The notes beneath the pieces were generated by a model, which saw only the letters and a list, made by a program, of their open reading frames with translations, was not told the DNA's origin and ran no database searches. Shown here one piece after another: positions 1,318 to 36,363 of a stretch of 64,000 nt of DNA. The position numbers were made by a program, and so were the translations under genes. How positions within the stretch are numbered: position 1 is the stretch's first letter; each line of letters begins with the position of its first letter. The stretch comes from Salminus brasiliensis (Eukaryota; Chordata; Actinopteri; Characiformes; Bryconidae): contig NC_132902.1 of assembly GCF_030463535.1 (NCBI RefSeq), forward strand, positions 28,330,915-28,394,914. Direction: 5' to 3'.

Positions 1318-2458
1318 CACAGGGAAGGCAGAGGAGACGGCCGTGTGGGGGTGACAAAAATATTCCTGGCGGCGTACTGCGTGAATCCCACACTGCTGAC
1401 GGCAACCGGTTCCTCAACCTCATCTGGCGTCGGGATCCGCCTACTCGGGCTTGTGCAAGTCGAACTGGGACTCCAGCAGGTCTGAGCAGGACCAGAGGAA
1501 ACAGGGGGAGAGAAATAAGGAGGGAGTTCCCTAACAGATAAACACAAACCCATTCTCACTGGTAGCAACCAGACTTCAGAACCACACAGACCCGCATTCT
1601 GTTCAACACTGCCTCCAGCTGCAGCGGGACAAACAGAACCACTCAATTCAGGAGGATTTCTAAAGCATGCAGAAATGGTTCTGAGAGTTCTGCACAACGA
1701 AGAGCATCTTTACTGCACTGAGATACGGCCTTAACACACACTCGATTAATACGCACTTGACGGATTTGAAGGGTTCTTAGAGTGCTTCACAGAACACACA
1801 CACACACACATATATATACATATATACACACACACCTTAAATGCTCCACTGTTGTGATAAACAGCCCATTTTAAAGGACAGCAGTTATAAATAATAAATA
1901 TTAGACTGGTATCAAATGACAGTCAAGGAACACCCAACGACCCAATATACAAATTATATGCCAATATACAACAGAACCATTCTAATAATTATGGTTAAAT
2001 GGTTATGGTTCTATATAAGCCACTGCCTTCACTAGAGTACACCCCAGCTACTACAGACAGCGTGAACTCTTATGGGAGTAAAGTTCTATTTTTGGTACTG
2101 ATGAGCCACCAAGTCCCTCCATCGATCAGAAACCATTTAAACGCAGCGATCCATTTAGAAATGACTGGACTGGATATTGGAGCCTACATGAGGGGTCTTT
2201 GCCTTTTAATAACGCCAGAACCCGCCGCGGTTCTACACAGAAAACGAGTTCCTGACTTCAATATAAAACACTACATTCACTGAGGAACCCCTGAGGAACC
2301 CCTGAGGAACCCTACACATCACTCCTCACCTGTGAAGAACACGGCCTCTTTTTGGTCATCTCTGTAACCTCCTCGTCTGGATCCTGCAAATGCTGCATTC
2401 AGAACAAACGGGTTAATACACAGTCTGAGACCGCCAGGATGAGTTATGAAGCACAGAA

Positions 2459-2528
<70 letters not shown>

Positions 2529-2693
2529 CCCACTCACAATAGCAACATCTGCCTTTCTTTTCCTGGAGCGAGCAGCCAGGTTCCTTGGAGCTTCATCTGG
2601 ATCTGGAGTGCCTTTCACTTCTGTGTTTAGCCTGAGGAAGGAGTTCACCCAGTTAGGGTAAGTTAGCTGAGCATGCAGCAAATGCAGAAGCAC

Positions 2694-8685: not shown

Positions 8686-10301
8686 TTTATTTACTTTTTT
8701 TAAAAAGATTTTATCAAATATGTTCTTGGTTACAAAACAACTTTCAGTTCAGTAATATTTACAAAGTCTGTTTACAAATAAAACGCAGGCGCTCTGAAAC
8801 ACCACAGCAGACGAGTCCGCGCAGGTCCAGACTAAACCCAGTAACAGCGCCTGCTTTGGCACTAAATCACAGACTGCTACAAACTGGTGTTTTTTGGTAC
8901 ATCAGTATTTTTACAGCTCACATTTCACTGCTCCTCCGTCTGTAAAACAGCACCTCCTGCTTCAGATTCAGGGTAAACATCTTCTACTGTACTATCACTG
9001 TAACTCGAGCACACACTAGCTACGGCTACTCTAAAAAAAGAACCACAAACACACACACCCTATCCTACTGTTCTGAACAGACGTCCTGTCTGTCTTTATC
9101 TCACAAAAGTGGGATTAACTGATGTCTTCTACTAAACGCTCGCTCGAGGCTGCGTCTGGTCAGGTCTCCAGCATCTAACGGCATCTTTAACAAAGAGGTG
9201 AGAGCGGCAGGGGCGTACACTCGGGCTGCACCAGGCGGACGGGTCGGCCGCACTACAGTACTGCTTTCAACTGACTGACATCACATCCGTTAATCCGAAA
9301 TGTGACATCATCATCGTGGCACTGTGATATACAGTGTATGCCAATTCAAACAAACACACACAGAGCAGACTGTGATTGGTTAGAATTCTCTCAGCACACT
9401 GTAAACAGACACTCTGATTGGTTTATGGGCTCACTGATCTTTAACTAAGGAGGCTGTCTGACTTACAGACTGTAAATATTGAAGTATAAATGAACAAAGC
9501 TAACAAAGGTCATATTTACTGACTGGGTGGACATCTACTGCACCATTACATTAACCCATCCATATCCAAAATGTCCAATTGTCAAGCTGTCTGAGCCTAA
9601 ATATGAAGAAAATATCATATGATGGTGAATAAAAGTATGAAACTCGCATAAAAGCACATCAATTAAAATAGACGATAAGGCGATATTCATCCAAAGTATA
9701 ACTAAACACAATTTCATCCAATCAGATAATGTTAATATGATTAAAAACAGTAATAATGATAACAACCTGTATGTATACTGCACTTTCCATTTTAGTTACG
9801 AAATTAATTAAAGTGCTTTAACGAAAAACATGCATAAAATATTAGATAACATAAAAATAATTAATATAATTAAATAATTAAACTGTTAGACTAAATTTGG
9901 TTAATGGAAATGAATAGGTTAACAAGCAAATGGAAGATATAGAGATCCATCCTACATAAAATCCCTGAAAAATAATGTGTCATCAATAACAATTACTTAC
10001 GGAAATTGGTGCTGATTTTATGTTTAAAAATACTTTTTTTTTTACATATTTCTGATCTAATCTTGTGATGCAGCCCGTGTTTTACTAAACCCTGAATTTA
10101 CCAGGACTCAGTTTCCCAAAAGCACCTCAGTGTTAAGCTGATCTTCACTGAGAGAGAGAGAGAGAGAGAGATGAGTGTGATGCTCGCTCGTCTTTATGCT
10201 GAGATGCTTTGGGGAAACTCAGCCCCGTAACGTTGTCTCACACATCCATGGTCAGTCTGTTCCGAGGTCAGCGTATTCAGTGGCGTCAGGCAGGTGAGGT
10301 G
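8686..10301 (-). other. 3' UTR of the TP53INP-like gene
   Basis: A 1.6-kb non-coding stretch follows the stop codon on the minus strand and reaches an AATAAA signal (plus-strand TTTATT at 8686-8691). A (GA)n run lies at 10,141-10,170. Nothing else coding is visible. Confidence 0.6.
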
Positions 10302-12185
10302 TCAGTAGTTGTAGAGGCGCTGAGTGGGCTGTTTGAACTGGCCGTAGCGGCGGTCAGCCGGAGAGAAGCGTGTGTTGGCAAGGTTCTGCCTGTTGAGGGC
10401 GCTGCGGGTCAGTTTCCTGCGGTCCACGTGAGCTTTGGCCCGCTGCACCGAGAGCAGGATGGGCAGGGGGGAGCCCCAAGCTGCCAAACGCCACGAAACG
10501 TGACGCCTGACCGGCGCAGGCCTGGACACAGGACACAGAAGGTCAGTCAGATCATTAAAGCGATAGTTCAGGCAAAACTCAATTAAACCCAATTAAACCA
10601 CCCCCTCACCCACCACAGCCCTCCCTTACCCCGAATACAGTCCAAAGTATAGGCCAAAACATGTTCAGTGTCTCAAGTTTGCTTCTCTTTGCTTCTTTAG
10701 CACTGGAGCTACAAGGCTAATGTAGCTAACCAGCAACAGCAGGCCAAAATCATCACACACTCGCCTCAAACCATGTGGAGATGTTCAATAATCTCCAATA
10801 GACTTAATTATGTGGTTTCTGACACCCTATGGCTCACTGTTGTCTAGAACGTGGACTAAAGTACAGATTCAAGACGAAAAGGGATCTTTAGGTGCTAGCA
10901 GGGTTCTCCACCAATCTGTAGAACCCTTTAACCAGACAAAGAACCATTCAAGCACACAAACAGTTCTTTACGTAATCAAGAATATACTGTATACAGAACC
11001 GTGCTTAGCTCTGCTCCCTATTTCACTCCATGTTCTAGATAACAGTGTCAGAAATACATGATCAGGTTACTGAACAGGTACACCTGCACAAGCTTTGAGG
11101 AGAGTGTTAGGATTTAGGCATGCAGTTAGCAACATGCTAATTGGTGTACATAGCCTTCCATTAATCGTTAGCTACGCTTGATAAGTAGCTCCAGTGCTAA
11201 AACGAAAGAGGCCAAACTTGAGACACCAAACATGATCGATTCCATTTGGGGTAAAGTGTAGGGAACTGAGCGAATGAGAGTTTTCAGACTATCGCTTTAA
11301 TCACAGTTGTGGAATCAGAAGCTGCTCCTGCTGAGAAACATTTGACTGAAATTCACTTGTGATTTTTATGAAGGATCAGCTGACCTCAGAGAGTCTTCTT
11401 CATCTTCATCTGAAGCCTCCTCCTCCTGCTCCTCCATTCTGCCACGGCGCATCTGGTACACAGACATGCTCGGGTGTTCAATCAGCAGGTTCTCCAGAGG
11501 ATCCTCCTCAACGCGGCCTAGAGAACGGTTCTCTGCACAGGAATCACACATCGACCTATTAAATATCGTTTAACTGAGACTCATTTTCCTACTGCATACA
11601 AAACATCTCAGATGAGCTTCTAAGGGTAAATCATCTAATAAATCATAGGCGAGCTCCTAATGTTCTAACAAGTGTTTTAAGGCCTTTGGTCCAAGTTGCG
11701 TTTGACCGGTTAACGTCCATATCTGACATTTTACTCTTTTTTCTTTGGTCTGAATGATCTCAAACTGATCAAACTATAAGGATCACTGAAATCATTTTAG
11801 TTAAGGTCACATGGTCATTATGGTCACACTGACTTTTGGTAACAAAACAATAGAAAATCCAAATTCTGATTGTAAATATAAGCACTAAAATGACAATTAA
11901 TATTACAAATCACCCCTTAGAAGCCTTTTACAGCCTCTCTTGAGCACGGTGGCGTTATTCACCGAGAGAATGATCTGAGATGGTCAGTTGCTTTCAGGAA
12001 GTTCTGAAATCTGCTGAGGTGATTTCACAGGTGTGTAATCTGACCCCCGTCTCACCGTGTAAGTTAATGATGACCCATTCTCCATCTTCAAACTCAAACA
12101 CCTCCTCAGAGCCTTCGTTCTCCACGCTAACGCCAGCTCCCTCCTCAGCGCTGCCGAGGAGCTGGGCGAAGATTTTGCCGATCAT
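10302..12185 (-). CDS. TP53INP-family autophagy/transcription cofactor-like protein
   Basis: Coding exons 12,185-12,056, 11,532-11,385 and 10,521-10,302 join in phase to a 165-residue protein. TP53INP1/2 proteins shuttle between nucleus and autophagosomes, bind ATG8/LC3 and coactivate transcription. Visible hallmarks are an acidic LIR-type motif EFEDGEWVII (W37, I40), the family signature DPLENLLIEHPSMSVY (54-69) and a C-terminal basic block with NRQNL and the terminal QRLYNY. The N-terminus MIGKIFAQLL replaces the usual MFQRL start. The conserved ESWF-TPPPCF segment of TP53INP1/2 is absent, so the protein is short. Splice acceptor at 12,214 leaves 28 nt of 5' UTR in this exon; a non-coding exon 1 is proposed at about 15,671-15,830. 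Whether it is orthologous to TP53INP2 or a separate paralogue is open. Confidence 0.88.
10522..11384 (-). other. intron 3 of the TP53INP-like gene
   Basis: No repeat, RNA or extra exon is apparent in this 0.86-kb intron. Confidence 0.8.
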
Positions 12186-13075
12186 TTTCAGGTGCTTGTG
12201 TTTCCGATAGCAGTCTGTAAACACAGCAGTACAGAGCTTTTATTACCTATGATACTTATGATCAGATTCACAACAGCCTGAGCCCAGATCAGATGATCAG
12301 TCCAACATGTTGGGTCTCGGATGTGTGCTTCTTCAGTTACAACAGGATGCTAGACTGTATATGTATATGAGAATATATATATATATATGATTTATTTTCC
12401 ACATACATATGTGACAATTACTGTAACCGGTTCCTCCAGCGTTCCTCTGCTCTGTGGAGAAGGTTCTGTTTGTGTTTATAGGCTAAAGTAAGTCCACAGT
12501 ATTCTGAACCACATCCGTCTACCAAACTAGATACATACTTTTTTGATCACAAAGGAAATTTAGCAGCCAGAAGCAGTTACACAATATAGCACAGTAATAT
12601 AATAAATAACTGTACAGCAGAAATGATGCATTTAAACTTAACGGGAGATGAAAGACTGCTGAAAGACTACGCAGTAATAAAGAATGAATCCTGTGTAATG
12701 AGGGTATAAGCAGATAAACGACCACACTGAATAAACATGTGCACATACTGTTATTTAATTACCTAACTAATGCAGATCTGGAGGAGCTCTGAGAGACAGA
12801 CGGGTCTGAGAGACAGACGGGTTTGAACGTGTTTACAGAGATCAGATGAGGCCGTAAAAACGTGTTCATTAGCTAATTTGACTAAAGCATTAGTGTTAGC
12901 ATGTTAGCTCCTGGCTAGCAGGTTGGCTTAGAGCTAACATATTATCCTGTGGCTAGCACAGTAGCTTAGGTTTAATATAATAGCTGCCCCATTAGCTTTA
13001 GGCTAACAATAAGTCATGTCTAGTGTGTTAACATTATCTCGGGCCTAGCACACTGTGCTCAACGTTAATTAGAGC

Positions 13076-13824
13076 AGTAGCTCCTGGCTAGTGTGTTAGC
13101 TTCTGGCTAGAGTGTTAGCTCCTGGCTAGTGTGTTAGCTCCTGGCTAGTGTGTTAGCTCCTGGCTAGAGTGTTAGCTCCTGGCTAGAGTGTTAGCTCGTG
13201 GCTAGAGTGTTAGCTCGTGGCTAGAGTGTTAGCTCGTGGCTAGAGTGTTAGCTCCTGGCTAGAGTGTTAGCTCCTGGCTAGTGTGTTAGCTCCTGGCTAG
13301 AGTGTTAGCTCCTGGCTAGTGTGTTAGCTCCTGGCTAGTGTGTTAGCTCCTGGCTAGAGTGTTAGCTCCTGGCTAGTGTGTTAGCTCCTGGCTAGAGTGT
13401 TAGCTCCTGGCTAGTGTGTTAGCTCCTGGCTAGAGTGTTAGCTCCTGGCTAGTGTGTTAGCTCCTGGCTAGAGTGTTAGCTCCTGGCTAGAGTGTTAGCT
13501 CCTGGCTAGAGTGTTAGCTCGTGGCTAGAGTGTTAGCTCGTGGCTAGAGTGTTAGCTCCTGGCTAGAGTGTTAGCTCGTGGCTAGAGTGTTAGCTCGTGG
13601 CTAGAGTGTTAGCTCGTGGCTAGTGTGTTAGCTCGTGGCTAGTGTGTTAGCTCCTGGCTAGTGTGTTAGCTCCTGGCTAGAGTGTTAGCTCCTGGCTAGT
13701 GTGTTAGCTCCTGGCTAGAGTGTTAGCTCCTGGCTAGTGTGTTAGCTCGTGGCTAGTGTGTTAGCTCCTGGCTAGTGTGTTAGCTCCTGGCTAGTGTGTT
13801 AGCTCCTGGCTAGAGTGTTAGCTC
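13076..13824. repeat. 19-bp minisatellite, about 39 units
   Basis: Units read GTGTTAGCTCCTGGCTAGA with only two variable positions (AGAGTG or AGTGTG; CTCCTGG or CTCGTGG). Diverged precursors of the unit occur just upstream, about 12,895-13,075 (GTTAGCTCCTGGCTAGCAGG). It lies in intron 1 of the TP53INP-like gene. Confidence 0.97.
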
Positions 13825-14706
13825 AGTGTGTTTCTGTGCTTTAATGAAAACAGTGTGCATGTACTGTACTTTTATTTAGGGTTAGAAGCTTAAATATTAT
13901 ATATATAATATAATCTATATATTGTCATTGTATCAAAATTGTGTGATACACAGATTTCCACAGAGTTTCCTTTTGGTAAAGCTGCTGTTATACGTTTTTT
14001 GTTTATACATGACAGTGATTATATATATATATATTAGTGCTGTAATACTTTGACATCAGCTCAGGCTGTTCCTTGCTCAGATGATTGATGGGTGGAACAT
14101 AGCTGTGACGCATCGTGTGTCTGTTACACGTCACAGAGGAAATCAGAGACAGGCTTGCATAAGCTGAAGCGTGAGGCCGGACTGTGCAGTGTGTTAACAT
14201 TTCAGAACAGGGTGGACTCACACGGTCAGGCCTGGGCAGGCCGGACAGGGCGACTCGACCCGGCATCTGTGAGCCTGCAGAGTTTATTTTTAACACTGGA
14301 ATTCAGTTCCTAATTTAGCAGAAATGAATAAATAAGTGACCCCATCATCCATACGGCCACCGACACAAGGTCACCTTATTCTCCCACACCATCAGCTGAC
14401 CATCAGAGAGTTCTGTGTGTGCTTCTCCAATCTGACCGGGGGGATAAATACGGTCTAAACGTGATTAAATGTCAGATCACCATTTCAAAAAGTCTGCCGC
14501 ACACTCTCAGAGGGGAGGACCGCAGCCTGACTGAGCGGTGGGGTGGCACGCAGATGTGCAGCAGCAGCAGCAGCTCACCTGATTTACCATCATTAAGCCC
14601 TGATTTACCACCAAACCAGGTGTTGATCTGAGGAGAACTCTAGATAATACTAGACTCCATACATATATATACCTTTTAATAATAAAATTGTATTAAAATA
14701 ATGAAA

Positions 14707-14749
<43 letters not shown>

Positions 14750-15063
14750 GACTGCTTGAGTCATAAGGGTTTTCCTCATAGCTCGACCCCTCTTGGGACT
14801 GATTTGAGGAAGTCTAGACACAATGAAGCAACATTTTCTAAAGGCTTTTGTGCTCTTGCTGAACCTGATAACCTTTTTAAAGGACTTTACACCCCTGTTT
14901 CACTCAACACTCACACACCAGCTAATAATATAAACCAGCAGGGACTGGGAGAGGACACTAAATACAAACCCAGCAAAACAGGCAGGTAGAGGTGTTAGAG
15001 AGAAGTGTCCAAGACATCTGTATGACTGGAGTTAGATTACTGAGAGATCTGTGTAATCCAGGT
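13825..15063. other. intron sequence, no gene seen
   Basis: This holds short TA runs, a (TTA)n tract at about 14,708-14,750 and no supportable coding exon. Confidence 0.7.
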
Positions 15064-15127
15064 GGCCTGGGGGATTGGGTGGGGTGGGGTACGGTGGGGT
15101 GGGGTACGGTGGGGTGGGGTGGGGGGG
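15064..15127. repeat. G-rich tandem block
   Basis: Repeats of GGGGTGGGGTACGGT give more than eight G-runs of four on the plus strand, which is the template strand of the TP53INP-like gene. The sequence could form G-quadruplexes. Confidence 0.8.
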
Positions 15128-15670
15128 TTGTGTAATATTTCCTCTCTCTGCTTACACACACACTGCATCTAAAGACTAAACGGCTCAGATTACAATAACA
15201 GCAGAGCTGAGGGTCTACATCTCTCACAGGCTGAATGGGATTCACTGTACTGTGTTCATCTGCATGTTGGGCGTGTCGAGTGTTGATCGCCTGGTAGATG
15301 TTTTTTATAGTCATTTATAAATAGAATACACATTATTATCTCATTACACAGTATAATCTGTTCTCTGTTTTGGTGGAAATGCAGTTTACTCATCACACAA
15401 CAACAGAAGACAAAGCAGACTAGACCTGAGTGCAGAGACCCTCACAGACCCTCACAGACCCTCACAGACCCTTCATCTAGGCTTCATCAGCCAGTTATTG
15501 GGTTACAGCTCAGTCTGTAGGGTTCGGGTTGGCTGGTTTATCAGGATTTCTCAGTAAAGCTGAATAACTCAGACTAACAGAGCTTTCCTGCCTCCCCTGT
15601 GGATCAGACCGGACTTCTGGTTAGCTGGTGTTTCTGGGGGCAGGTCAGCGGGTAGGTGCAGTAATCTTAC

Positions 15671-15880
15671 CTGTTCAGTAGTTCGGTAGTTCGGTGGTTC
15701 GGTGGTTCGGTGGTTCGGTGGTTCCGCTGTGTCGGGCTCGGTCCTCCTCTCTCTGCTCGCTTCTTTCTCCGTTTGTTTACCATCGGTTAGCTCCGCCCCT
15801 TTGCGTGACGCCACCGCGTTCCACTTATTTGAATCCACAGCGCCGCCCATGCAGAGGCGCTGCGGCCCCGCCCACTTATG
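15671..15880 (-). promoter_or_regulatory. non-coding exon 1 and promoter of the TP53INP-like gene
   Basis: On the minus strand a consensus donor GAACAG|GTAAGATT ends an exon at 15,671. Upstream are GC boxes (GGGCGGGG, AGGGGCGGAGC) and a CRE-half-like GCGTCACG. The putative 5' UTR contains a short tandem repeat GAACCACC before the donor. The orientation and distance fit exon 1 of the gene whose next exon begins at 12,214. Confidence 0.6.
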
Positions 15881-18179: not shown

Positions 18180-19852
18180 TGCTCAAAAACATAAAGGGAA
18201 CACTCAAATAACACATCCTAGATCTGAATGAATGAACATAGTGGTTGGTGTGGCACAACAGATAACACCACCACCTACCACTGAGTTACAACACCATGTG
18301 GGAGACCAGGGTTCGATTCCCAGTCTGGGTGACTATCCTGTGCTACACCAATAAGAGTCCCTGGGCAAGACTCCTAACACTACATTGGCCCACCAGTAAT
18401 ATCAGTAACCTTGTAAGTCGCTCTGGATAAGAGCGTCTGCTAAATGCTGTAAATGTAAATGTAAACATATGAATGTTCTGTACAAAGTTGAATGTGCTGA
18501 CAACAAAATCACACAAAAATCATCAATGGAAATCAAATCTATTAACCAATGGAGGCCTGGATTTGGAGTCACACACAAAATTAAAGAGGAAAAACACACT
18601 ACAGGCTGATCCACCTTTGATCTAATGTCCCTAAAACAAGTCAGAATGAGGCTCAGTATTGTGTGTGGCCTCCACGTGCCTGTATGACCTCCCAACAACG
18701 CCTGGGCATGCTCCTGATGAGGATCTCCTCCCAGACCTGGACTAAAGCATCCGCCAACTCCTGGACAGTCTGTGGTGCAACGTGACGTTGGTGGATGGAG
18801 CGAGACATGATGTCCCAGATGTGCTCAATCGGATTCAGGTCTGGGGAACGGGCGGGACAGTCCATAGCTTCAATGCCTTCATCTTGCAGGAACTGCTGAC
18901 ACAGTCCAGCCACATGAGGTCTAGCATTGCCCTGCTTTCGGAGGAACCCAGGCCCAACCGCACCAGCATATGGTCTCACAAGGGGTCTGAGGATCTCATC
19001 TCGGTACCTAGTGGCAGTCAGGCTACCTCTGGCGAGCACATGGAGGGCTGTGCGGCCCTCCAAAGAAATGCCACCCCACACCATTACTGACCCACTGCCA
19101 AACCATTCATGCTGAAGGATGTTGCAGGCAGCAGATCACTCTCCACGGCGTCTCCAGACTCCGTCACGTCTGTCACATGTGCTCAGTGTGAACCTGCTTT
19201 CCTCTGTGAAGAGCACAGGGCGCCAGTGGCGAATTTGCCAATCCTGGTGTTCTCTGGCAAATGCCAAGCATCCTGCACGGTGTTGGGCTGTGAGCACAAC
19301 GCCCATCTGTGGACGCCGGGCCCTCATACCATCCTCATGGAGTCGGTTTCTAACCGTTTGTGCAGACACATGCACATCTGTGGCCTGCTGGAGGTCATTT
19401 TGCAGGGCTCTGGCAGTGCTCCTCCTGTTCCTCCTTGCACAAAGGCGGAGGTAGCGGTCCTGCTGCTGGGTTGTTGCCCACCTACGGCCTCCTCCACGTC
19501 TTCTGGTGTACTGGCCTGTCTCCTGGTAGGGCCTCCAGCGTCCACATTGATGTGCCATCCTGGATGAGCTGCACTACCTGAGCCACTTGTGCGGGTTGTA
19601 GAGTCCGTCTCATGCCACCACGAGTGTGAAAGCACCACCAACATTCAAAAGTGATCGAAAGCATAGGTACTGAGAAGTGGTCTGTGGTCCCCACCTGCAG
19701 AACCACTCCTTTATTGAGTGTGTCTTGCTAATTGCCAATAATTTCCACCTGTTGTCTATTCCATTTGCACAACAGCATGTGAAACTGATTGTCAATCAGT
19801 GTTGCTTCCTAAGTGGACAGTCTGATTTCACAGAAGTTTGATTTACTTGGAG
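18177..19852 (-). mobile_element. Tc1-like transposon, inactive, with nested SINE
   Basis: The left terminus CTGCTCAAAAACATAAAGGG and the body match a widespread fish Tc1 family. On the minus strand the transposase is readable in pieces: [20 protein letters not shown] at about 19,610, the middle of the protein at 19,558-19,136 and MVWGGISLEGRTALHVLARG onward at 19,084-18,653. A TGA ends the middle piece where an Arg codon is expected, and a deletion near 19,540 shifts the start. Both catalytic Asp positions appear replaced (FTEESRF and KQGNARPH), while the Glu in NPIEHIWD remains. The right terminal repeat is missing. Confidence 0.9.
18241..18463 (+). mobile_element. tRNA-derived SINE nested in the Tc1 element
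   Basis: The head has a B box GGTTCGATTCC near 18,310, and the tail has the L2-type CTGGATAAGAGCGTCTGCTA followed by short TGTAAA repeats. Flanking AACATA copies at 18,235-18,240 and 18,464-18,469 look like a target-site duplication, so it inserted after the Tc1. Confidence 0.85.
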
Positions 19853-19888
19853 AAAAAGAAAACATAGAAATAACTAATAATATTAATA

Positions 19889-19890
<2 letters not shown>

Positions 19891-19937
<47 letters not shown>
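19891..19937. repeat. (TG)n microsatellite next to a splice acceptor
   Basis: It replaces the usual polypyrimidine tract just 6 nt before the GGATCAG acceptor of copy A exon 2 (19,943). Confidence 0.95.
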
Positions 19938-19938
<1 letters not shown>

Positions 19939-19956
19939 ATCAGAAGGCTGTGTGCG

Positions 19957-20540
19957 ATGGCCTACCGGGTAAACGACATCATGAAGTTGTGCTGTGAGGT
20001 GTCTGCAAACCAGCAGATGAAAGCAGCAGTGAAGAATTCTGGGAAAGGAGCAGCGGTGGCTGGGGGCGGAGCGTTTGTGGGAGGGCTGTTAGCCGGACCC
20101 CCAGGGATTGCTGTTGGTAAGAGCAGGTCCTATCAGATGTGATTAGGGGCTGGTGGGGGGGCTGGTGGGGTCTGGGCTGTCTGTCAACCACATTGTAACA
20201 CTCTTAACAGAAACTACATTTGGGGGGACTGACTCTTCTCAGGACCCTAAATCAGCCTGTGTTCTGGTCTGTAGGTGGAGCTCTGGGGGGTCTGCTGGGA
20301 TGCTGGATGACCAGTGGTCAGTTTAAACCGGTTCCTCAGATCATCATGGAGCTGCCCTCCGAGCAGCAGCAGAAGCTGTACTCTGACGTCATGGCAGTTC
20401 TGGGGACACTGGACTGGACGGACGTGGCTCAGCTGATCGCCCTGGTGATGGGAAACGCCACAATGCAGCAGCAGGTCGTAGCCGCCATCCTCAGCTACGT
20501 CACCAAGGAGCTGCGAGCTGAGGTGCGCTACGGAGACTGA
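19957..20540 (+). CDS. C19orf12-like membrane protein, copy A
   Basis: Exons 19,957-20,116 and 20,275-20,540 join in phase to 141 residues. C19orf12 proteins sit in mitochondrial and ER membranes; human mutations cause the iron-accumulation disorder MPAN, and the biochemical role is unsettled. Family features are [10 protein letters not shown] near the start, KMKAAVK-like [13 protein letters not shown], a long glycine-zipper hydrophobic segment (about residues 29-66; [17 protein letters not shown]), then [17 protein letters not shown] and the C-terminal [14 protein letters not shown]. The intron splits the Gly codon of IAVGG. The middle intron is only 158 bp. Acceptor at 19,943 gives a 13-nt leader before the ATG. 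Polyadenylation signals occur near 21,197 and 21,371. Confidence 0.95.
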
Positions 20541-20942
20541 CCACCAGGAGGAGACACACAATCAGTGAGATTAGGTGTAAATTGTAGAAACTCAGTGGTT
20601 TATATCTGAGCTCAGTGCCTTGCTGGTTTATTTATATCATCTCTTTAAACAGGTGTTTTAGAATCTGAATGTTGAAGGACTGCAGGCTGGAGTTTTAGAA
20701 AAGCGAGAGTTCGGCCAAAAATGTCATTCATATTTGATTTCAGATTTGATATGGTGCTAACAGAAGATTAGTGATGCATGACTATATTAGAATACTTCTT
20801 AAGAAGTGAGAACAATACAAGTTTCCTTCTGGAAGAATAACCTTTTAATATGCAAATAACCATTTATTAATTTAAAAGGTTCTTTACTTTGATCTATATT
20901 GATGTAACAGAGGGCGAGAGAGGCGTGTTGTGCTCCAGTGGT

Positions 20943-20973
<31 letters not shown>

Positions 20974-20976
20974 ATG

Positions 20977-21048
<72 letters not shown>

Positions 21049-21400
21049 TACACGTACCGCTACACCTCTTGTGTCTAGACGTGAAAAGGATTACATGATG
21101 TGAGTTAGGTTTTTGGCCGAACCGTCGCTTTAGAGTATTAATTATTACGATTATGTAGCATGAGTTTTACAGTACATGCACTGAGTTTTACAGTCAATAA
21201 AGTAACTTTTATACTCCGCTGGCTTCCACAGCTAATGAATGAGCTATAGATTTTGTAGATGTTTTTAGCAGAATTTTTTATTTTGAACACAATCATTTAA
21301 AAACAAATTAACTCTGTATCCAATCAAAGAGGATTTATATGAAAATATTGTTTGTACCTGAAATAATGAAATAAATGGATCTTAGTCATTTGAGACTTCA
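20541..21400 (+). other. 3' UTR of copy A with (TA)n tract
   Basis: Non-coding sequence includes a TG-TATG-(TA)n compound microsatellite at 20,943-21,045 and AATAAA signals near 21,197 and 21,371. Confidence 0.6.
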
Positions 21401-21832
21401 GTCTTATTTCTTGTGGCATTTTCTGAAAGAGATGATGAGCTAAATTTGAAGACGGGTCGCAGTGCTTTACTATCATGCCCTCTTTCTACACTGAGATAAA
21501 ACCCGCTGTAAAAATAAATTAAAACTAGTATTTACTGTCAGAAAATGACAGTGTTTGTCTATCTAGTCTTTCATTCCTTTAATGAACCATTCTGGCAGAT
21601 TACAGCATATTTGTGTTTTGTTGGAGGCCAGTTTCTAACTTAAAGTATCTGATACATTTATAGTTTATCATTTCTATGGTCCTTTAACTCAGAAAAGTCT
21701 ACATGAGTTTAGGACAGTATGTACTCTATCAATAAATAGTTTTTATGAGTAATACAGATTAATAGCTACAATTCTAAAAGTAATGTTTCTGAAGCTTCTA
21801 GAAGTATTACAGTTAAAGTTTCTGAAGTTAAT

Positions 21833-22274
21833 GTTAAACTTTCTATTTTGACATTGCATACACACACACACACACACACGCATATAGCCTATTAGCAAAT
21901 GTGTGTATACTTGTCTTCTGTTCTCAGATTGTCACTAATGTTGATTTAATAGATATTCTAATTCTGCAATTTACTCTCTAACAGACTGAGGAAACTGTAA
22001 CTCCAGCTTTATGATGGTCTCTCAGTCTGAAAGTGAATTCTATATTCTATATGTGTATTCTATAACACTAGTAGTAGACGGTAAAGTAAAGTGTGCTTTG
22101 GCTCAGGTCCAGTGAAAGTGTATAAACGAAAATAAAACCATGAGTGAGATTTCAGCTCTGAGATCAGACCTGATCAGAGTAAAAGCTGGAACATGTTCCA
22201 CACCTTTGATCTGTTTCATACCTCTGATGTCATCTTTTAATATCAAAGAGACAATAGTTACAGCTGAGTTACAT
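21833..22274. repeat. direct duplication, unit 1
   Basis: About 430 bp are almost identical to 23,611-24,116 (for example GCCTATTAGCAAATGTGTGT through CAGCTGAGTTACAT). Only the embedded dinucleotide tract differs greatly (CA here, a long TA run in unit 2). Confidence 0.92.
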
Positions 22275-22524
22275 ACTGTCTTCATTACATACTGTCTATA
22301 TATATAATAATAATAACAATAATAATAATAATGATGATGATGATGATGAAATGAAGTTTCTGAAGTTAAAGTCTCTAAAGATTAAGTTTCTGAAGTTTTT
22401 ATTTATTTTTATTAAGACAGTATGTAATGAAGACAGTATGTAACTCAGCTGAGTTACATCAATAATAATAATAATAATAATTGATGAAATGATCAAGTTT
22501 CTAAAGTAAAAGTTTCTGAAGTTT

Positions 22525-22555
<31 letters not shown>

Positions 22556-23060
22556 TATTTATTAAAACAGTACTTTGCAAAAGTTTTAAAACTTGTGAAA
22601 AGTGCTGTAAATACAAAAACAGCGTTATAATTAGCCCTGAACAGAATAGTGTGCGTTCCAGGATGTAGGATGGGGTGATGTGTATTTTGGGTCAGTGTTA
22701 GTCCTCCAAGCGTGAAAGATAAAACAAAAGCATGAGTGAGATTTCAGTTTCATAAAAGATCAGACCTGTTCCTGCAGGTTTCTCCTGGAACCTGTTCTGA
22801 ACTGCTGACGTCAGCTCTTTTCTCTGTAGTCTCTGCGTTTCCACTAAACTACACAAACATGTATAACTCTGATGACCTGGTCATGTGACCCCCCTTGTCA
22901 GCAGTGTAACCTAATAAACAGGTAACTCGGTGTGTAATGCAGTGTGTTTGGCAGAGCAAAATTGTATTAAATGGGCTCGGCTTGCTTTATTTTTTAATGT
23001 ATGTATATATTTGATTAAATATAAATATAATAGAACATCTCAACTAATCCAGTTTTCTTT
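22275..23060. other. spacer with partial repeats
   Basis: This holds TAA/TGA trinucleotide tracts and repeated AAGTTTCTGAAGTTTTTATT blocks that also occur at 24,190-24,260. No gene is visible. Confidence 0.6.
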
Positions 23061-23238
23061 ATGGACTACTTTCTGTAGCTGCACTACACCCTGCAGCATG
23101 TATCCCTCCACCATTTTAATGATCTGGTTCTAAAAGCAGGTTCTAGAGCCGAACTCTTCTCAGAACTCTGGTAGAACAGTGTCTCAGGCATCAGGCAGCG
23201 TCTTCATCACCATTAGGTGAAGAACTTTCTGTGAGCTT
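23061..23238 (-). repeat. dispersed VNTR-bearing repeat (copy B, tail only)
   Basis: This is the reverse complement of the tail at 900-1094. It lacks the VNTR units and lies directly upstream of copy B exon 1. Confidence 0.85.
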
Positions 23239-23259
23239 TCTGCCTCCATCATGTTTTAT

Positions 23260-23493
23260 GCAGATGTATAAACTTGTACCCAAGGATCCTTGCACAGGAC
23301 GCAGAGAGGCTGTCCTTAGATTCTCCTACTGTTCTTCTCTTAATCTGTAACAGAACCAGTCATACACGTGTGACTGTCCTATCGTCACTGACAGGAGGGG
23401 TGTAGATCTGAGCTGGAGAGCAGAGAGGACTCAGCATGAGGGTGAAGCTGTGAAGTGAGGATATACGAACATCAGCTGAGAAAGAGAACGCAG
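23260..23493 (+). promoter_or_regulatory. promoter and non-coding exon 1 of c19orf12-like copy B
   Basis: The donor GAACGCAG|GTAAGA ends at 23,493. The preceding GAGCTGGAGAGCAGAG and GGTGAAGCTGTGAAG align with the copy A block, but this copy has lost the high GC content and repeats. Confidence 0.55.
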
Positions 23494-23610
23494 GTAAGAC
23501 CACTACTGTAAGACTCTACTACAGACTACAGCACCAGGCTGGCACTAGATTGCAGAACACCAGTCTGAGCTGAAACAGTGGAAGATATAGAGATTATACA
23601 CACTTGGAAT

Positions 23611-23646
23611 TATTAAACTTCCTATTTTATGACATTGCATATTCAG

Positions 23647-23728
<82 letters not shown>

Positions 23729-24116
23729 CCTATTAGCAAATGTGTGTATACTTGTCTTCTGTTCTCAGATTGTCACTAATGTTGATTTAATAGATATTCT
23801 AATTCTGCAATTTACTCTCTAACAGACTGAGGAAACTGTAACTCCAGCTTTATGATGGTCTCTCAGTCTGAAAGTGAATTCTATATTCTATATGTGTATT
23901 CTATAACACTAGTAGTAGACGGTAAAGTAAAGTGTGCTTTGGCTCAGGTCCAGTGAAAGTGTATAAACGAAAATAAAACCATGAGTGAGATTTCAGCTCT
24001 GAGATCAGACCTGATCAGAGTAAAAGCTGGAACCTGTTCCACACCTTTGATCTGTTTCATACCTCTGATGTCATCTTTTAATATCAAAGAGACAATAGTT
24101 ACAGCTGAGTTACATT
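23611..24116. repeat. direct duplication, unit 2
   Basis: The partner of 21,833-22,274. It includes a (TA)n tract at 23,659-23,728. It lies in intron 1 of copy B. Confidence 0.92.
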
Positions 24117-24128
24117 AATAATAATAAC

Positions 24129-24169
<41 letters not shown>

Positions 24170-24492
24170 TGATGATGATGATGATGAAATGAAGTTTCTG
24201 AAGTTAAAGTTTCTAAAGATTAAGTTTCTGAAGTTTTTATTTATTTATTTATTTTTATTAAGACAGTACTGTGCAGCTGAGTTACAGCTGAGTTATAATG
24301 ACGAAGATGATGAAGATGATGATGATGGTGATGATTATGTTAAATGGGAATAAAGGCACCCAGACACTAGAATCCGATGAGGTCTGAGAGAGTGTGTTGA
24401 CTGACCTGATGAACCCTTTCTAGGAGTGTTTATCATGTAGAGAACAGTGCAGCAGTTATTGATTAGTGTGTGTTGATCAGCAGACTGTGTTG

Positions 24493-24519
24493 ACACACAC
24501 ACACACACACACACACACA
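24493..24519. repeat. (AC)n microsatellite inside a 5' UTR exon
   Basis: Acceptor GATCAG at 24,480 by alignment with copy A puts this CA run inside exon 2, six nt before the ATG at 24,526. Confidence 0.8.
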
Positions 24520-24525
24520 GAGACG

Positions 24526-26471
24526 ATGACCTACAGAATAGATGACATCATGCAGCTGTGCTGTGAGGTGTCAGCGAGCAAGCAGATGAAAGCAGCAGTG
24601 AAGAGCTCGCTGAAAGGAGCGGGGGCGGCTGGAGGTGGAGCATTTGTGGGCGGGCTGTTAGCCGGACCACCGGGGATCGCTGTTGGTAAAAAGGCTTTAT
24701 TAGGTTTTGTCTGTCTGTCTGTGTGTCTGTCTGTCTGTGTGTCTGTCTGTGTGTCTGTGTGTCTGTCTGTGTGTCTGTCTGTCTGTGTGTCTGTATGTGT
24801 GTCTGTCTGTCTGTGTGTCTGTCTGTGTGTCTGTCTGTCTGTGTGTCTGTATGTGTGTCTGTCTGTGTGTCTGTCTGTGTGTGTGTCTGTCTGTGTGTCT
24901 GTGTGTCTGTCTGTGTGTCTGTCTGTCTGTGTGTCTGTATGTGTGTCTGTCTGTCTGTGTGTCTGTATGTGTGTCTGTCTGTGTGTCTGTCTGTATGTGT
25001 GTCTGTCTGTCTGTCTGTATGTGTGTCTGTGTGTCTGTCTGTGTGTCTGTCTGTGTGTCTGTGTGTCTGTCTGTGTGTGTGTCTGTTTGTGTGTGTGTCT
25101 GTGTGTGTGTCTGTCTGTGTGTCTGTCTGTGTGTCTATCTGTCTGTGTGTCTCTGTGTGTCTGTGTGTGTGTCTGTCTGTGTGTCTGTCTGTGTGTCTGT
25201 CTGTGTGTGTGTCTCTGTGTGTGTCTGTGTGTCTGTATGTGTGTCTGTCTGTCTGTGTGTCTGTCTGTGTGTCTGTCTGTGTGTGTGTCTGTCTGTATGT
25301 GTGTCTGTGTGTCTGTGTGTCTGTCTGTGTGTCTGTCTGTGTGTCTGTGTGTCTGTCTGTGTGTCTGTCTGTCTGTGTGTCTGTATGTGTGTCTGTCTGT
25401 CTGTGTGTCTGTATGTGTGTCTGTCTGTGTGTCTGTGTCTGTCTGTATGTGTGTCTGTCTGTGTCTGTCTGTCTGTGTGTCTGTCTGTGTGTCTGTGTGT
25501 CTGTCTGTGTGTGTGTCTGTCTGTGTGTCTGTGTGTCTGTCTGTGTGTGTGTCTGTCTGTGTGTCTGTGTGTCTGTATGTGTGTCTGTCTGTCTGTGTGT
25601 GTGTGTGTGTGTGTCTGTCTGTGTGTGTGTCTGTCTGTGTGTGTGTCTGTGTGTGTGTCTGTCTGTGTGTGTGTCTGTGTGTGTGTCTGTGTGTCTGTAT
25701 GTGTGTCTGTCTGTCTGTGTGTGTGTCTGTGTGTGTGTCTGTCTGTGTGTGTGTCTGTCTGTGTGTGTGTCTGTGTGTCTGTCTTGATTTTTTAACTAAA
25801 ATAATGTCAGGGATGCTTTTAGAGAATTGTGATGAATCTTATGATGCTGCTGAGTTAAATTACACTGTATCACAGACGGCTTCTACACACATTCCTCACC
25901 TCAGCTCCAGTGAAAGGAGCTCTTAATGATTCAGCAGACCAAGAGGTGTTGGTCACTTTCATGCTTCCAGCTTTGCAGGTACAGTTTGGGGACGCCCCTT
26001 CCTGTTCCTACATGGCTGCACACCAGTGCACAAACCAAGGTCCATAAAGACCTGGATGAGTCCGGACATCAACCCGATAGAACAGGGTAGAATAGCGGAG
26101 ACTGTGAACCAGGCCTTCTCGTCCAGCATCAGTGTCTGACCTCACAAATGAGCTTCTGGAAGAACGATTCCCCTGAACACTAAACTCCTGACCCCTGTGG
26201 AAAGACTTTCCAGAAGAGCTGAAGCTGTTCTAGCTGCAGAGGGAGGCCTGATCATATACAACCCTACGAATTACAAATGGGATGTCTCTAAAGGCAGGCG
26301 AGCGAATACTTTTGGTAATATAGTGTATATATTAAATTACATATATTTATTAATAACTATTGTCCCAATTATTTTTGCCCCCAATCCAATCCGACCCTAA
26401 TCCTGACTGTCGGACGGTACCGACCTGTGTTCACAGAAGGGAAAATAAAAACTGCAGGGTTTAATATCGTA

Positions 26472-26519
<48 letters not shown>

Positions 26520-29026
26520 CGTTGTGTGCTGATTACTCCTGTGTGAGACTGAATGAGCTTGGGATTACCCCAACCTTCCCCTCCGTCCTGTCGCCTGCTG
26601 CTGTTTTTCAAAAAGTACCTTAAACATGGTCTTTGTGTTTTGTAGCTTCTTCCAGTGAACAAAACTAAAACGAGCTTCATCTGAGCTGATAAATGTGCTG
26701 ACAAGACTTCTGACGCTCCACCTTTAACAGTGCAGCAGTTACTGGGTCGACTCCAGCAGCAGAACGGAACTGCAGCAGTCTTTAAGGTGGAGCACCGCGT
26801 CCCGGGACGAGGAGCTTTGCGCTGCGCTGTTCACTGTGATGAGCTCATAAATGATCATGTTCAGGGTAGATTCTGAGCTCCTCACTGCGGCAGCTAAGGA
26901 TCATGTCTGGTAACGGTGCCTAGAGGACACCAGAGGGCGCTCTCCTACAACAATACCAGGGATCGAGAGTGGATCCATTAAAAGCTCCTGATCGGCCACT
27001 GATCCTGAGGCAGTGGATCGGTTCGGGACATCCCTATTTATAAAAAATCAAAACTGTGGATATACATTGTATTACTTCATATCCAATTAATAAGATCACA
27101 TAAAATCCCTCAAACAAAACCCAACATCCACATCTCCCCCCGTTTCAGTCAGTTAGTGATGGTGTTGAGTCCAGGTTTACGCAGTAACACTGTGTGAACA
27201 GCAGGGGGCGCTTTGTTTTCTGTGAAGTCCTGCAGCTGGGCTGTGTTTTGAAATTGTTAGAGATTTCTGAACACCTCCACACTGGGGTGATTTATGCGTA
27301 TAGCATCATGCTAATTGGTGGGGTATAGGTTTTCATTATTTGTTAGCTACAGCCATGCCGGAAAGTCTGCACACCCCTTTCACCTTCTCTACGTTTTATT
27401 ACATTACAGACTCATTCTGAAGTAGATTAAGTTCATTTTTTGTCTTAAACATCTACAAACATACGAACACAAACAGGTTTTTAGAAAACATGCAGTTTTA
27501 TTTTACTGAGAAAAACAGGTTCTTTAGGGGCTCCATATCTGTACAGACCCTGAGCCCAATACGAGGTGATGCTCCTTTGGCAGTGATCATGTGGTCTTGG
27601 GAAAGAAGCTACGAGCCTGGCACGCTTGTTTCTGGACATTTTTGCCCGTCGTCTCGGCATATCCTTGCATGCTCTGTCAGGTTGGATGGGGAGCGTTGGT
27701 CCACAGCCATTTTCAGCTCCTTCCACAGGTGTTCAGGTACTCAGGTGTTCAGGTCTGGGCTCAGGCTGGGCCACGCAAGGCCATTCACAGACTTTGTCTG
27801 AAGCCACTCCTTTGTCCTCTTGGCTGTGTGCTGCAGGTTGTCGTCATGTTTAAAGCTAAACCCTTTCCCCAGTCTGAGGTCCTAAGTGCTCTGGAGGGAA
27901 GGGTGTACAGGACTAGTCCTCCGGTCCCGCTGCTGAAAACACCCCACTGTAGGGATGGCATTAGCCAAGTGATGAGCGTGGCTGGTGGCTGGTTTCCTCC
28001 AGACGTGACGCTTGGTTTTCAGGCCAAAACGTTCATCACTCTGGTTTCATCAGACCAGAGCCTCTTGTTTCTCACGGTTGGAGAGGGCCTTTTGGGCCTT
28101 TTGGGAAACTCTGAGCAGGCCATCATGTGCCTTTCACTGAGGAGTTGCTCTGTTTGGCCTCTCAACCATAAAGGCGTTGATCTTCTGTAAGGTTCTCCCG
28201 TCTCCACAAGGATACGCTGAAGCTCTGTCAGAGTGACCCTCGGGTTCCTGCTCACCTCCTTGACCAAGGCCTGCCTCCCCCGATCCCTCAGTCTGGCCGG
28301 GCGGTCAGGACTAGGAGGTCTTGATGACTGATGGTGGCCGCTGTGCTCTTTGGGGTCTGTAAAGCTGCAGCAGTTTTTCTGGACCTTTCTCCAGATCTGT
28401 GCAGATAAGTCCTCAACTGTGGGACCTTATATAAGCAGGTGTTCCCCAATCAGGTCCAATCAGTTGAATTTACCACAGGTGGAGTCCAGTGAAGCTGTAG
28501 AAACATCTTGAGCTGTATCAGAGGAAACCAAAGGCTTTTGGGCGTTATAAAGGGTGTGCAGTCTGGTGTACAGGTGATATTTTACATTTAGATTTTTAAT
28601 AAATGAGCACACCTGTGTGAAGGGGGGGGGGGGGCAGACCTTCCTGCTTGACTGTACATGAGTCTCACGCCTCCGGTGATGAGCTGTGTTTGGGGTAAAG
28701 TGGGAAATGGGGGACTGACTCTTCTCAGGACCCTAAATCAGCCTGTGTTCTGGTCTGTAGGTGGAGCTCTGGGGGGTCTGCTGGGATGCTGGATGACCAG
28801 TGGTCAGTTTAAACCGGTTCCTCAGATCATCATGGAGCTGCCCCCTGAGCAGCAGCAGAAGCTGTACTCTGACGTCATGGCGGTTCTGGGGACACTGGAC
28901 TGGATGGACGTCGGCAAGCTGATCGCGCTGGTAAAGGGAAGCGCTGCGATGCAGCAGCAGGTGGTGGCCGCCATCCATGGCTACGTCACCAAGGAGCTGA
29001 GAGCTGAGGTGCGCTACGAAGACTGA
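24526..29026 (+). CDS. C19orf12-like membrane protein, copy B
   Basis: Exons 24,526-24,685 and 28,761-29,026 join in phase to 141 residues, the same length and splice position as copy A. The start [16 protein letters not shown] and the glycine-zipper [19 protein letters not shown] are conserved. Differences from copy A cluster in the N-terminus and in [20 protein letters not shown]. The last 60 bp of the intron and the first part of exon 3 are nearly identical to copy A. The single intron is 4.07 kb against 158 bp in copy A, because it took in a TGTC array and two Tc1 fossils. Consensus splice sites and an intact frame argue that it is functional. An AATAAA lies near 29,184. Confidence 0.93.
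24709..25784. repeat. 1.1-kb TGTC/TG satellite-like array
   Basis: The array is built only from TGTC, TG and rare TATG modules. It begins 23 bp after the copy B donor at 24,686. Because all modules are even in length and stop-free, all three plus frames stay open; these are not genes. Confidence 0.98.
25900..26327 (+). mobile_element. 3' half of a Tc1-like transposon
   Basis: Sequence around 26,060-26,140 is the decayed coding of the transposase C-terminus (DINPIE then RPSRPASV-like). It ends in a recognisable right terminus GAATACTTTTGGTAATATAG. An internal deletion before TCCGGACATCAACCCG removed part of the catalytic region. It lies in copy B's intron. Confidence 0.85.
26473..26518. repeat. 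(TG)n microsatellite
   Basis: A simple TG run in copy B's intron. Confidence 0.95.
26519..27350. other. intron sequence with CTCF-like motifs
   Basis: No gene is seen. ACACCAGAGGGCGC at 26,927-26,940 and AGCAGGGGGCGCT near 27,200-27,212 resemble the CTCF core. The first sits in a short dispersed repeat also present near 63,600. Confidence 0.5.
27352..28573 (-). mobile_element. Tc1-like transposon fossil
   Basis: The ends GAAAGTCTGCACACCCC and AGGGTGTGCAGTCTGGTG are imperfect inverted repeats. On the minus strand, 28,267-28,019 encodes part of a Tc1 transposase ([20 protein letters not shown], then LWSDETRV with the first catalytic Asp). The rest is shifted or deleted. It lies in copy B's intron, opposite to the gene. 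Confidence 0.88.
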
Positions 29027-34853: not shown

Positions 34854-35717
34854 CTAAACCCGTGGTGGTTTCGCATGCTCTGGGCGGATGTAGCAGTACT
34901 GAGAGTTATTCTCGAACCACAGAGTTGGTGCACTGCTGGCCACCTGTTGCTCCTCCTCCTCACTGGAGGCTTCGTATTCAGGTGTATCTTCCACAGAGTT
35001 GGTTTTCCAGTCGTTTCCCGCCAGCTTTCTTGTCTGCTGCATGTGCAGACACTCAATCCGCTCCTGACCCTGCAGGTTGGACTTGCAGAGCATGCACACT
35101 CGCACAGGTTTGTCGGAGATGTGTCTGAGCACGGCGCGGGCCTTGGAGCAGGAGTTGCAGACGATGAAGCCGCAGCGTCTGCAGTGGTGTCTGCGGTGGG
35201 TTATGTTAAAGCGATTGGAGCAGCGCATGCAGATCGCCGAGGCGTGGTCTGGAATCCACGTGGCGGCGAAGTCTTTGGTGTGTGGTGTGTTGACCGGAAG
35301 GCCCAGCCGCTGCAGGTGCTGGGTTCTGCAGCTCTCGATGTGCTCCATCCAGGCCAGCTTCTCTTCTGCAGAAGCCGCCGACACGTAGAAGGACTTTCTG
35401 GGTGTCTTTATGAGCCACTGGTTGCACATGTTCAGGCTGTCCTCCAGATCCTCCTGCTCGACCTCCTCCAGGCGGATGATCTGCTGGTTCTTGTGCCAGC
35501 GGCCTGCCATCACGATACTGCCGTACACCAGGATGTCGTTGAAGAGGAAGAAGGCTTTGGGCTGAGGACGGCGCCTGCAAAGCTTCATCAGACGGCCTTC
35601 ACCCACCAGGACCCGCTCTGGCTTCAGCAGAGACTTCCCAGAGGGGCCGAACGAGCTCTCTACCGCCAGGATCCGTTCACGGTTCTCCACAGTAAAGTGT
35701 AGATGATCTGCCATCAT
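34854..35717 (-). CDS. plekhf1: PLEKHF1 (phafin-1), PH and FYVE domain protein, complete
   Basis: A single coding exon of 287 residues. The PH domain (about 36-133) includes VLVGEGRLMKLCRRR and FFLFNDILVYGSIVM. The FYVE domain (about 152-212) shows WIPD (154-157), the phosphoinositide motif RRHHCRRCG (175-183), RVC, and four CxxC pairs (CMRC, CRRC, CNSC, CMLC) for two zinc ions. Phafins bind phosphatidylinositol 3-phosphate on endosomes and lysosomes and act in endocytic traffic, autophagy and lysosome-linked cell death. The acidic C-terminal part (EASSEEEEQQ) is longer and different from the human tail. An acceptor at 35,725 leaves 7 nt of leader before ATG-ATG; the first Met is chosen but the second is equally possible. 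A non-coding exon 1 lies upstream at about 36,365-36,465. Confidence 0.96.
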   Translation of the reverse strand: MMADHLHFTVENRERILAVESSFGPSGKSLLKPERVLVGEGRLMKLCRRRPQPKAFFLFNDILVYGSIVMAGRWHKNQQIIRLEEVEQEDLEDSLNMCNQWLIKTPRKSFYVSAASAEEKLAWMEHIESCRTQHLQRLGLPVNTPHTKDFAATWIPDHASAICMRCSNRFNITHRRHHCRRCGFIVCNSCSKARAVLRHISDKPVRVCMLCKSNLQGQERIECLHMQQTRKLAGNDWKTNSVEDTPEYEASSEEEEQQVASSAPTLWFENNSQYCYIRPEHAKPPRV

Positions 35718-36363
35718 TGAGAATCTGCAGAAGGTTCAGACTGCTGTTTAGCTCCGGCATGTAATCACTGGCATACATCAAATATTTCAAATGAGCATCA
35801 TCTGCTGAGGAAAGCACTGAATTCACCTGATCCTGAAGTGTGTTTTCCCTCTTAATAATAATAAATATACATCTCACTATATCAGCACAGTTTTATATGT
35901 AAATAATGTAAATGTACACCCTTCAGTATAGATACTCCAGTGCATTCCTTTATATACTGTAATTCTACTGCAGCTCTATTGACCCACTTTAAACCCTTCA
36001 AAATAAGTACAGTAGAAATACACAGAACTCTACATTTCTAGTAAATGAAATGTAAATAAATACATACATTAAAGAAAATGTGCTGACTCATATTAGCAGA
36101 ATGTGCCAAAACACGCATTGTTGAACAATGCAAAATATAGGCACAAGAGGCAATCACCGGGGACCAAGCATTTTTAAATTCAAGTTCCCAATTTGAAATT
36201 CACTTAATTATCAAATTAAATTATTGAAAGGTGTTATAATATAATGCATAATAAATAAGAATAGTATAAAATCCTAACACTTGTTGATCTACACTGAACC
36301 TGAACAAACAGCAAATCTTTCAACAGAAGTTATGAATAATATTAAAGTTATTAAAGCTGATAC

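Follow-up and report, generated by a model that had tools for sequence, protein, structure and literature searches.

The window analysed here, a 64,000-nucleotide stretch of the Salminus brasiliensis genome (C29:28330915-28394914 of 1.07 Gb), contains a gene of the DOR/TP53INP family, which acts in stress and autophagy, in the interval between ccne1 and plekhf1. Our results suggest that this window copy is probably a third DOR/TP53INP gene, derived from an ancestral CCNE-TP53INP-PLEKHF block and left beside ccne1 and plekhf1 by the whole-genome duplications of early vertebrates. The encoded protein is a homologue that has diverged, and is typical of neither TP53INP1 nor TP53INP2, because the ESWF-TPPPCF half of the conserved region 2 is absent from its coding sequence and undetectable in intron 1.

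Gene model and family membership

Three intact coding exons on the minus strand (span 10302-12185) join into 498 nt (12056-12185, 11385-11532 and 10302-10521), which encode 165 amino acids and a stop codon in an uninterrupted frame, with two GT-AG introns of phase 1 and then phase 2. The parts of the gene are given below, a slash marking each splice junction.

15671..15760 (-): putative 5' untranslated exon, ending CAG/GTAAGA, proposed from its donor site only, with an arbitrary upstream limit
12186..12214 (-): 5' untranslated part ahead of the start codon, after acceptor TTTACAG (12214), a predicted splice site
12056..12185 (-): exon with the start codon (12185), coding part, with the LC3-interacting region (LIR) EDGEWVII; donor CACG/GTGAGA, phase 1
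11533..12055 (-): intron 1, 523 nt, with no ESWF-TPPPCF coding remnant above shuffles
11385..11532 (-): coding exon 2, with PLENLLIEHPSMSVY and an acidic run; acceptor GCAG/AG, donor CTGAG/GTCAGC, phase 2
10302..10521 (-): coding exon 3, with C-terminal QPTQRLYNY and the stop codon

The putative untranslated exon ending at 15671 would explain the end coordinate of the original prediction. The candidate 5' intron of the gene also holds a 19-bp minisatellite of TAGCTCCTGGCTAGAGTGT (39 copies, 96%, 13078-13824).

The protein matched the Pfam DOR profile (PF14839) over residues 50-143 with 52.9 bits (E 6.1e-14, cut-off 25); the only other Pfam family listed for it fell below its own cut-off, and among 177635 sequences no relative of solved structure was matched at E values of up to 10. 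Its recognizable motifs are the LIR EDGEWVII of region 1 at residues 33-40, an acidic motif of the form W-x-x-I/L/V, PLENLLIEHPSMSVY at 55-69 (the LIEHPSMSVY helix, the C-terminal half of region 2) and QPTQRLYNY at 157-165. By this profile and by exon structure and intron phases shared with other family genes, the window copy is a member of the DOR/TP53INP family, and the coding model and DOR score bear out the earlier claim of a 165-residue TP53INP-type protein with a LIR, LIEHPSMSVY and terminal LYNY between ccne1 and plekhf1. No p53 response element stood out near the gene, the whole window holding one match with two mismatches (7164) against 2.04 expected.

A six-frame DOR profile search of the whole genome, in which all seven of seven candidates were scored, gave four matches at three loci, namely C5 (two exons), C14 and C29. 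Since detection went exon by exon, the figure of three is a minimum; the matches do not include the last exon of either the C14 or the C29 gene. For the C5 gene (tp53inp1, 242 aa) and the C14 gene (tp53inp2, 315 aa), models were built manually on the splice sites, and all three genes are alike in having three coding exons with intron phases 1 and 2. A retrocopy origin of the window copy was therefore rejected, its introns being conserved with identical phases. The coding part of the first exon measures 124 nt in both paralogues and 130 nt in the window copy; the phase at its end is shared and the alignment, albeit weak, begins at the start codon, so that the "new N-terminus" first ascribed to the protein is better described as a diverged family N-terminus. 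The C14 tp53inp2 (C14:2876544-2880588) has a long exon 2 of 553 nt and ends in CQRSFCH, against CQRQFNY in human, so that its C-terminal motif is altered.

Synteny and phylogeny of the three loci

The gene order on C29 is ccne1 (-), a BtpA-like gene (+), the window copy (-), c19orf12-like copies (+), plekhf1 (-) and a shcbp1-like gene. C5 carries the trio plekhf2 (-), tp53inp1 (+) and ccne2 (+); C5, not C29, is thus the ccne2/plekhf2 locus, and it holds its own TP53INP gene. On C14, a gamma-glutamyltransferase-like exon lies about 18 kb from tp53inp2. Quartet tests with human CCNE and PLEKHF sequences entered by hand placed the C29 cyclin with CCNE1 and the C5 cyclin with CCNE2 (179 sites; the other topologies were worse by 37 log units, with an approximately unbiased test probability, p-AU, of 0.0002). 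Likewise the C29 PLEKHF gene was placed with PLEKHF1 and the C5 one with PLEKHF2, the other topologies being worse by 25 log units (p-AU 0.0002). These groupings indicate that the CCNE/PLEKHF blocks split before fish and human separated, with a TP53INP gene between CCNE and PLEKHF in each, and, with two parallel trios, the window copy is best read as a pre-teleost ohnologue. The orientation of CCNE relative to TP53INP is also the same on C29 and C5. The proposal of a surviving whole-genome-duplication copy is supported by the C5 trio, by tp53inp2 on C14 and by the grouping of the neighbours with human CCNE1 and PLEKHF1. The neighbouring features within the window are as follows.

1320..2597 (-): 5' coding exons of ccne1, as weak tblastn matches in order (2538-2597, E 0.3; 2330-2389, E 0.18; 1320-1475, E 4e-4); the rest of the gene is outside the window, upstream on C29
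4700-8229 (+): BtpA-like gene, between ccne1 and the window copy (61-residue piece, Pfam 36.9 bits)
19813..29026 (+): c19orf12-like copies, between the window copy and plekhf1; last exon 20208-20540 matches Pfam C19orf12, the others were assigned by eye
34857..35735 (-): plekhf1 open frame, with PH and FYVE domains

The ccne1 gene straddles the window edge, with its cyclin box just upstream at C29:28325614-28328046. On the human side, where the gene content of 19q12, 8q22 and 20q11 served as background, the plekhf2-tp53inp1-ccne2 order of C5 is that of 8q22, and GGT7 lies near TP53INP2, with which the C14 neighbour is compatible. No BtpA-like gene is known at human 19q12.

Several observations weigh against an ancient copy, beginning with PLEKHF, whose orientation differs between the C29 and C5 trios. 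The protein tree is small and unrooted, comprising five proteins (three fish, and two human entered by hand) over 133-158 sites; all 15 unrooted topologies were compared in 12 settings (three alignments, two column filters and two models). The best topology in 12 of 12 settings joined the tp53inp1 pair and the tp53inp2 pair and left the window copy outside both (p-AU 0.69-0.94). Placing it with fish tp53inp1 nevertheless cost only 0.2-2.5 log units and was not rejected (p-AU 0.20-0.57), and in every setting this placement stood 0.001-1.1 log units ahead of that with human TP53INP1 (p-AU 0.10-0.29). Both results, together with the tp53inp1-type Asn carried in PLENLL, would suit a fish-specific copy of tp53inp1 that arose later, came to lie between ccne1 and plekhf1 and changed rapidly. 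We regard that origin as improbable, for such a duplicate, introns included, would have had to land precisely between the paralogues of tp53inp1's own two neighbours, and in matching orientation to cyclin E.

Still less credible, at a very low probability, is a duplicate of tp53inp2 from the teleost duplication or later. The C-terminal stretch VQRAKAHVDRRKLTRSALNRQN is by eye most like C14 tp53inp2, and exon 2 starts at the internal acceptor-like codon of that gene; against this, pairing with fish tp53inp2 was 6.1-9.9 log units worse than the best topology (p-AU 0.028-0.115, below 0.05 in half of the 12 settings, 0.051-0.115 in the remaining six), and C14 is where tp53inp2 itself lies, beside its gamma-glutamyltransferase-like neighbour. 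Pairing with human TP53INP2 gave p-AU 0.030-0.109. Of the two groupings that would count against the original prediction, that with tp53inp2 is disfavoured and that with fish tp53inp1 is unrejected (p-AU 0.20-0.57). The age of the window copy is not settled by the protein alone, and synteny carries the argument for the early duplication.

Beyond the gene of interest, the c19orf12-like last exons at 20208-20540 and 28652-29026 are very similar, as are the first exons at ~19.9 and 24.5 kb, and by eye the pair looks like a tandem duplication. Inside this cluster lies a 1.1-kb array of TGTGTGTCTGTC (24708-25784, about 89 copies), of which the long open frames on both strands at 24708-25784 are built. 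A pop4 gene at 46.7-47.1 kb was recognized by eye only, a 78-residue piece of it matching no Pfam family, and open frames at 18653-19573, 38423-39118 and 55281-56092 resemble Tc1/mariner transposases by eye.

The missing block and the exon 2 acceptor

The ESWF-TPPPCF block, the N-terminal half of region 2, is absent from the window protein. In the 523-nt intron 1 the best trace of it scored 12, against a shuffle mean of 10.5 (s.d. 4.5), and 95 of 300 shuffles scored at least as high; the same scan scored 95 on each of the two paralogues. The predicted loss of the block was therefore confirmed, it being absent from the coding sequence and its intron 1 trace no better than shuffles.

PMC3314686 reports that DOR genes carry a phase-1 splice signal within exon 2, use of which gives a short isoform, and that bony-vertebrate Tp53inp1 genes are without it. 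In C14 tp53inp2, the best pyrimidine tract (17/20) among 11 phase-1 AGs (exon 2 plus its own acceptor) precedes TTTCACTGCAG/AG, which falls within Phe-Thr-Ala/Glu, where the ESWF-TPPPCF block ends. Exon 2 of the window copy starts at ...CTGTGCAG/AG (GCA G/AG), at the same Ala/Glu codon position and in the same phase as this acceptor-like site. Reading upstream in frame from that exon meets a stop codon, TAA, at 11572-11570, and the sole intervening AG is out of phase. Given the shared acceptor codon, the upstream stop and the out-of-phase AG, the simplest account is that the short-isoform acceptor is always used, and the window gene looks fixed as the short isoform.

This account of exon 2 also has its difficulties. 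That the internal splice signal of tp53inp2 sits at the Ala/Glu codon is our own deduction from the sequence. In C5 tp53inp1 an AG likewise occurs at this position (14/20 pyrimidines), despite what PMC3314686 reports of bony-vertebrate Tp53inp1. The assumed acceptor of the window copy has a weak tract of 11/20 pyrimidines; three phase-1 AGs upstream in intron 1 are richer in pyrimidines, but they precede the in-frame stop, and a phase-1 AG 15 nt further in has equal pyrimidines. Exon 2 could accordingly start at 11517 instead, which would drop five more residues and leave the argument unchanged.

The weak tract might alternatively reflect a decaying, non-functional copy, as might the loss of half of a region that PMC3314686 describes as conserved in full in all members studied. 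Nor did the minus strand show a polyadenylation hexamer (AATAAA or ATTAAA) in the first 1 kb past the stop codon (9301-10302), which also counts against the preferred origin. Nevertheless, decay is very unlikely in view of the whole frame across three exons, the canonical splice sites and the strong codon-position G+C contrast (0.65/0.41/0.70 at positions 1/2/3, compared with 0.38 and 0.43 for the introns between coding exons). The LIR, the helix and the C-terminus are conserved in a protein whose identity to its paralogues (0.30-0.35) is like that between the other paralogues (0.32-0.36).

On the reading as an early vertebrate ohnologue, the ancestral CCNE-TP53INP-PLEKHF block would have been copied in the whole-genome duplications and this copy would have remained beside ccne1 and plekhf1. 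The start of exon 2 may then have shifted to the internal acceptor found in tp53inp2 at the same codon, fixing the short isoform, after which the skipped stretch coding for ESWF-TPPPCF would have decayed.

Predicted function and comparison with TP53INP1 and TP53INP2

The LIR, nuclear export, nuclear and nucleolar localization, and C-terminal retention functions of TP53INP1/2 are described in PMC3314686 and PMC12752491. In the latter, W35 and I38 matter for LC3/GABARAP binding and a C-terminal nine-residue motif is needed for cytoplasmic TP53INP1/2 in starvation. The counterparts of those two residues, W37 and I40, are kept in the window protein, as are Glu57, the LIEHPSMSVY helix and, in the C-terminal nine-residue motif, Q157, P158 and R161 (equivalent to Q212, P213 and R216 of human TP53INP2); the counterpart of Asp98 is Asn, as in TP53INP1. 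No R/K-R/K-x-R/K nucleolar pattern was found near the C-terminus, the sole match in the protein being RRGR at 72, and the stretch aligned to the TP53INP2 import signal has by eye five basic residues against seven. These features suggest a LIR-bearing autophagy adaptor that would be less nuclear and nucleolar than TP53INP2. The protein is predicted to bind LC3/GABARAP through W37-V-I-I40, as TP53INP1/2 do, and to be held in the cytoplasm under stress through Q157, P158 and R161. With no C-terminal R/K-R/K-x-R/K and fewer basic residues, it would probably be a paralogue centred on autophagy and more cytoplasmic, with less coactivator activity and no nucleolar role.

More tentatively, and with rather less than even confidence, we suggest that vertebrates inherited three TP53INP genes, the third being permanently fixed as what is an optional short form in TP53INP2, which would split autophagy-adaptor from nuclear coactivator work, and being lost beside cyclin E1 in tetrapods or mammals. 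A third ohnologue would change the two-gene history stated in PMC3314686, by which vertebrates hold two TP53INP genes from one duplication, an account repeated in PMC12752491. It could also mask knockouts of fish tp53inp1 or tp53inp2, and a natural paralogue that lacks the ESWF-TPPPCF half and keeps the LIR, the helix and the C-terminal motif offers a ready test of the role of that block. Among the matches listed, no third vertebrate TP53INP gene is described in the titles and abstract openings of open-licence papers. The "TP53INP3" in passages of PMC12148195 and PMC8557209, both human work, looks like a misprint for TP53INP1 and was set aside. Automatic fish genome annotation may already name the window gene as a "-like" entry. 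Zebrafish si:ch211-260e23.9, a possible orthologue, was left unused, since a table row of PMC9228135 gives it as a regulated gene, product unstated.

Compared with TP53INP2/DOR (C14 and human), the window copy has in common the three coding exons, phases 1 and 2, the LIR, the LIEHPSMSVY helix, the C-terminal QPxQR and the aligned exon 2 acceptor codon, and 48 of 152 aligned residues are identical to the C14 protein. It differs in lacking the residues equivalent to human TP53INP2 66 to about 80 and the RRSK nucleolar pattern, and its genomic block is also another than that of TP53INP2. With TP53INP1 (C5 and human) it shares the three coding exons, the same phases, LENLLIEHPSMSVY of the C5 protein and the YNY end of human TP53INP1, with 53 of 150 aligned residues identical to C5 tp53inp1; it is without ESWFITPPPCF and is shorter (165 against 242 aa), and its neighbours are paralogues of the neighbours of tp53inp1.

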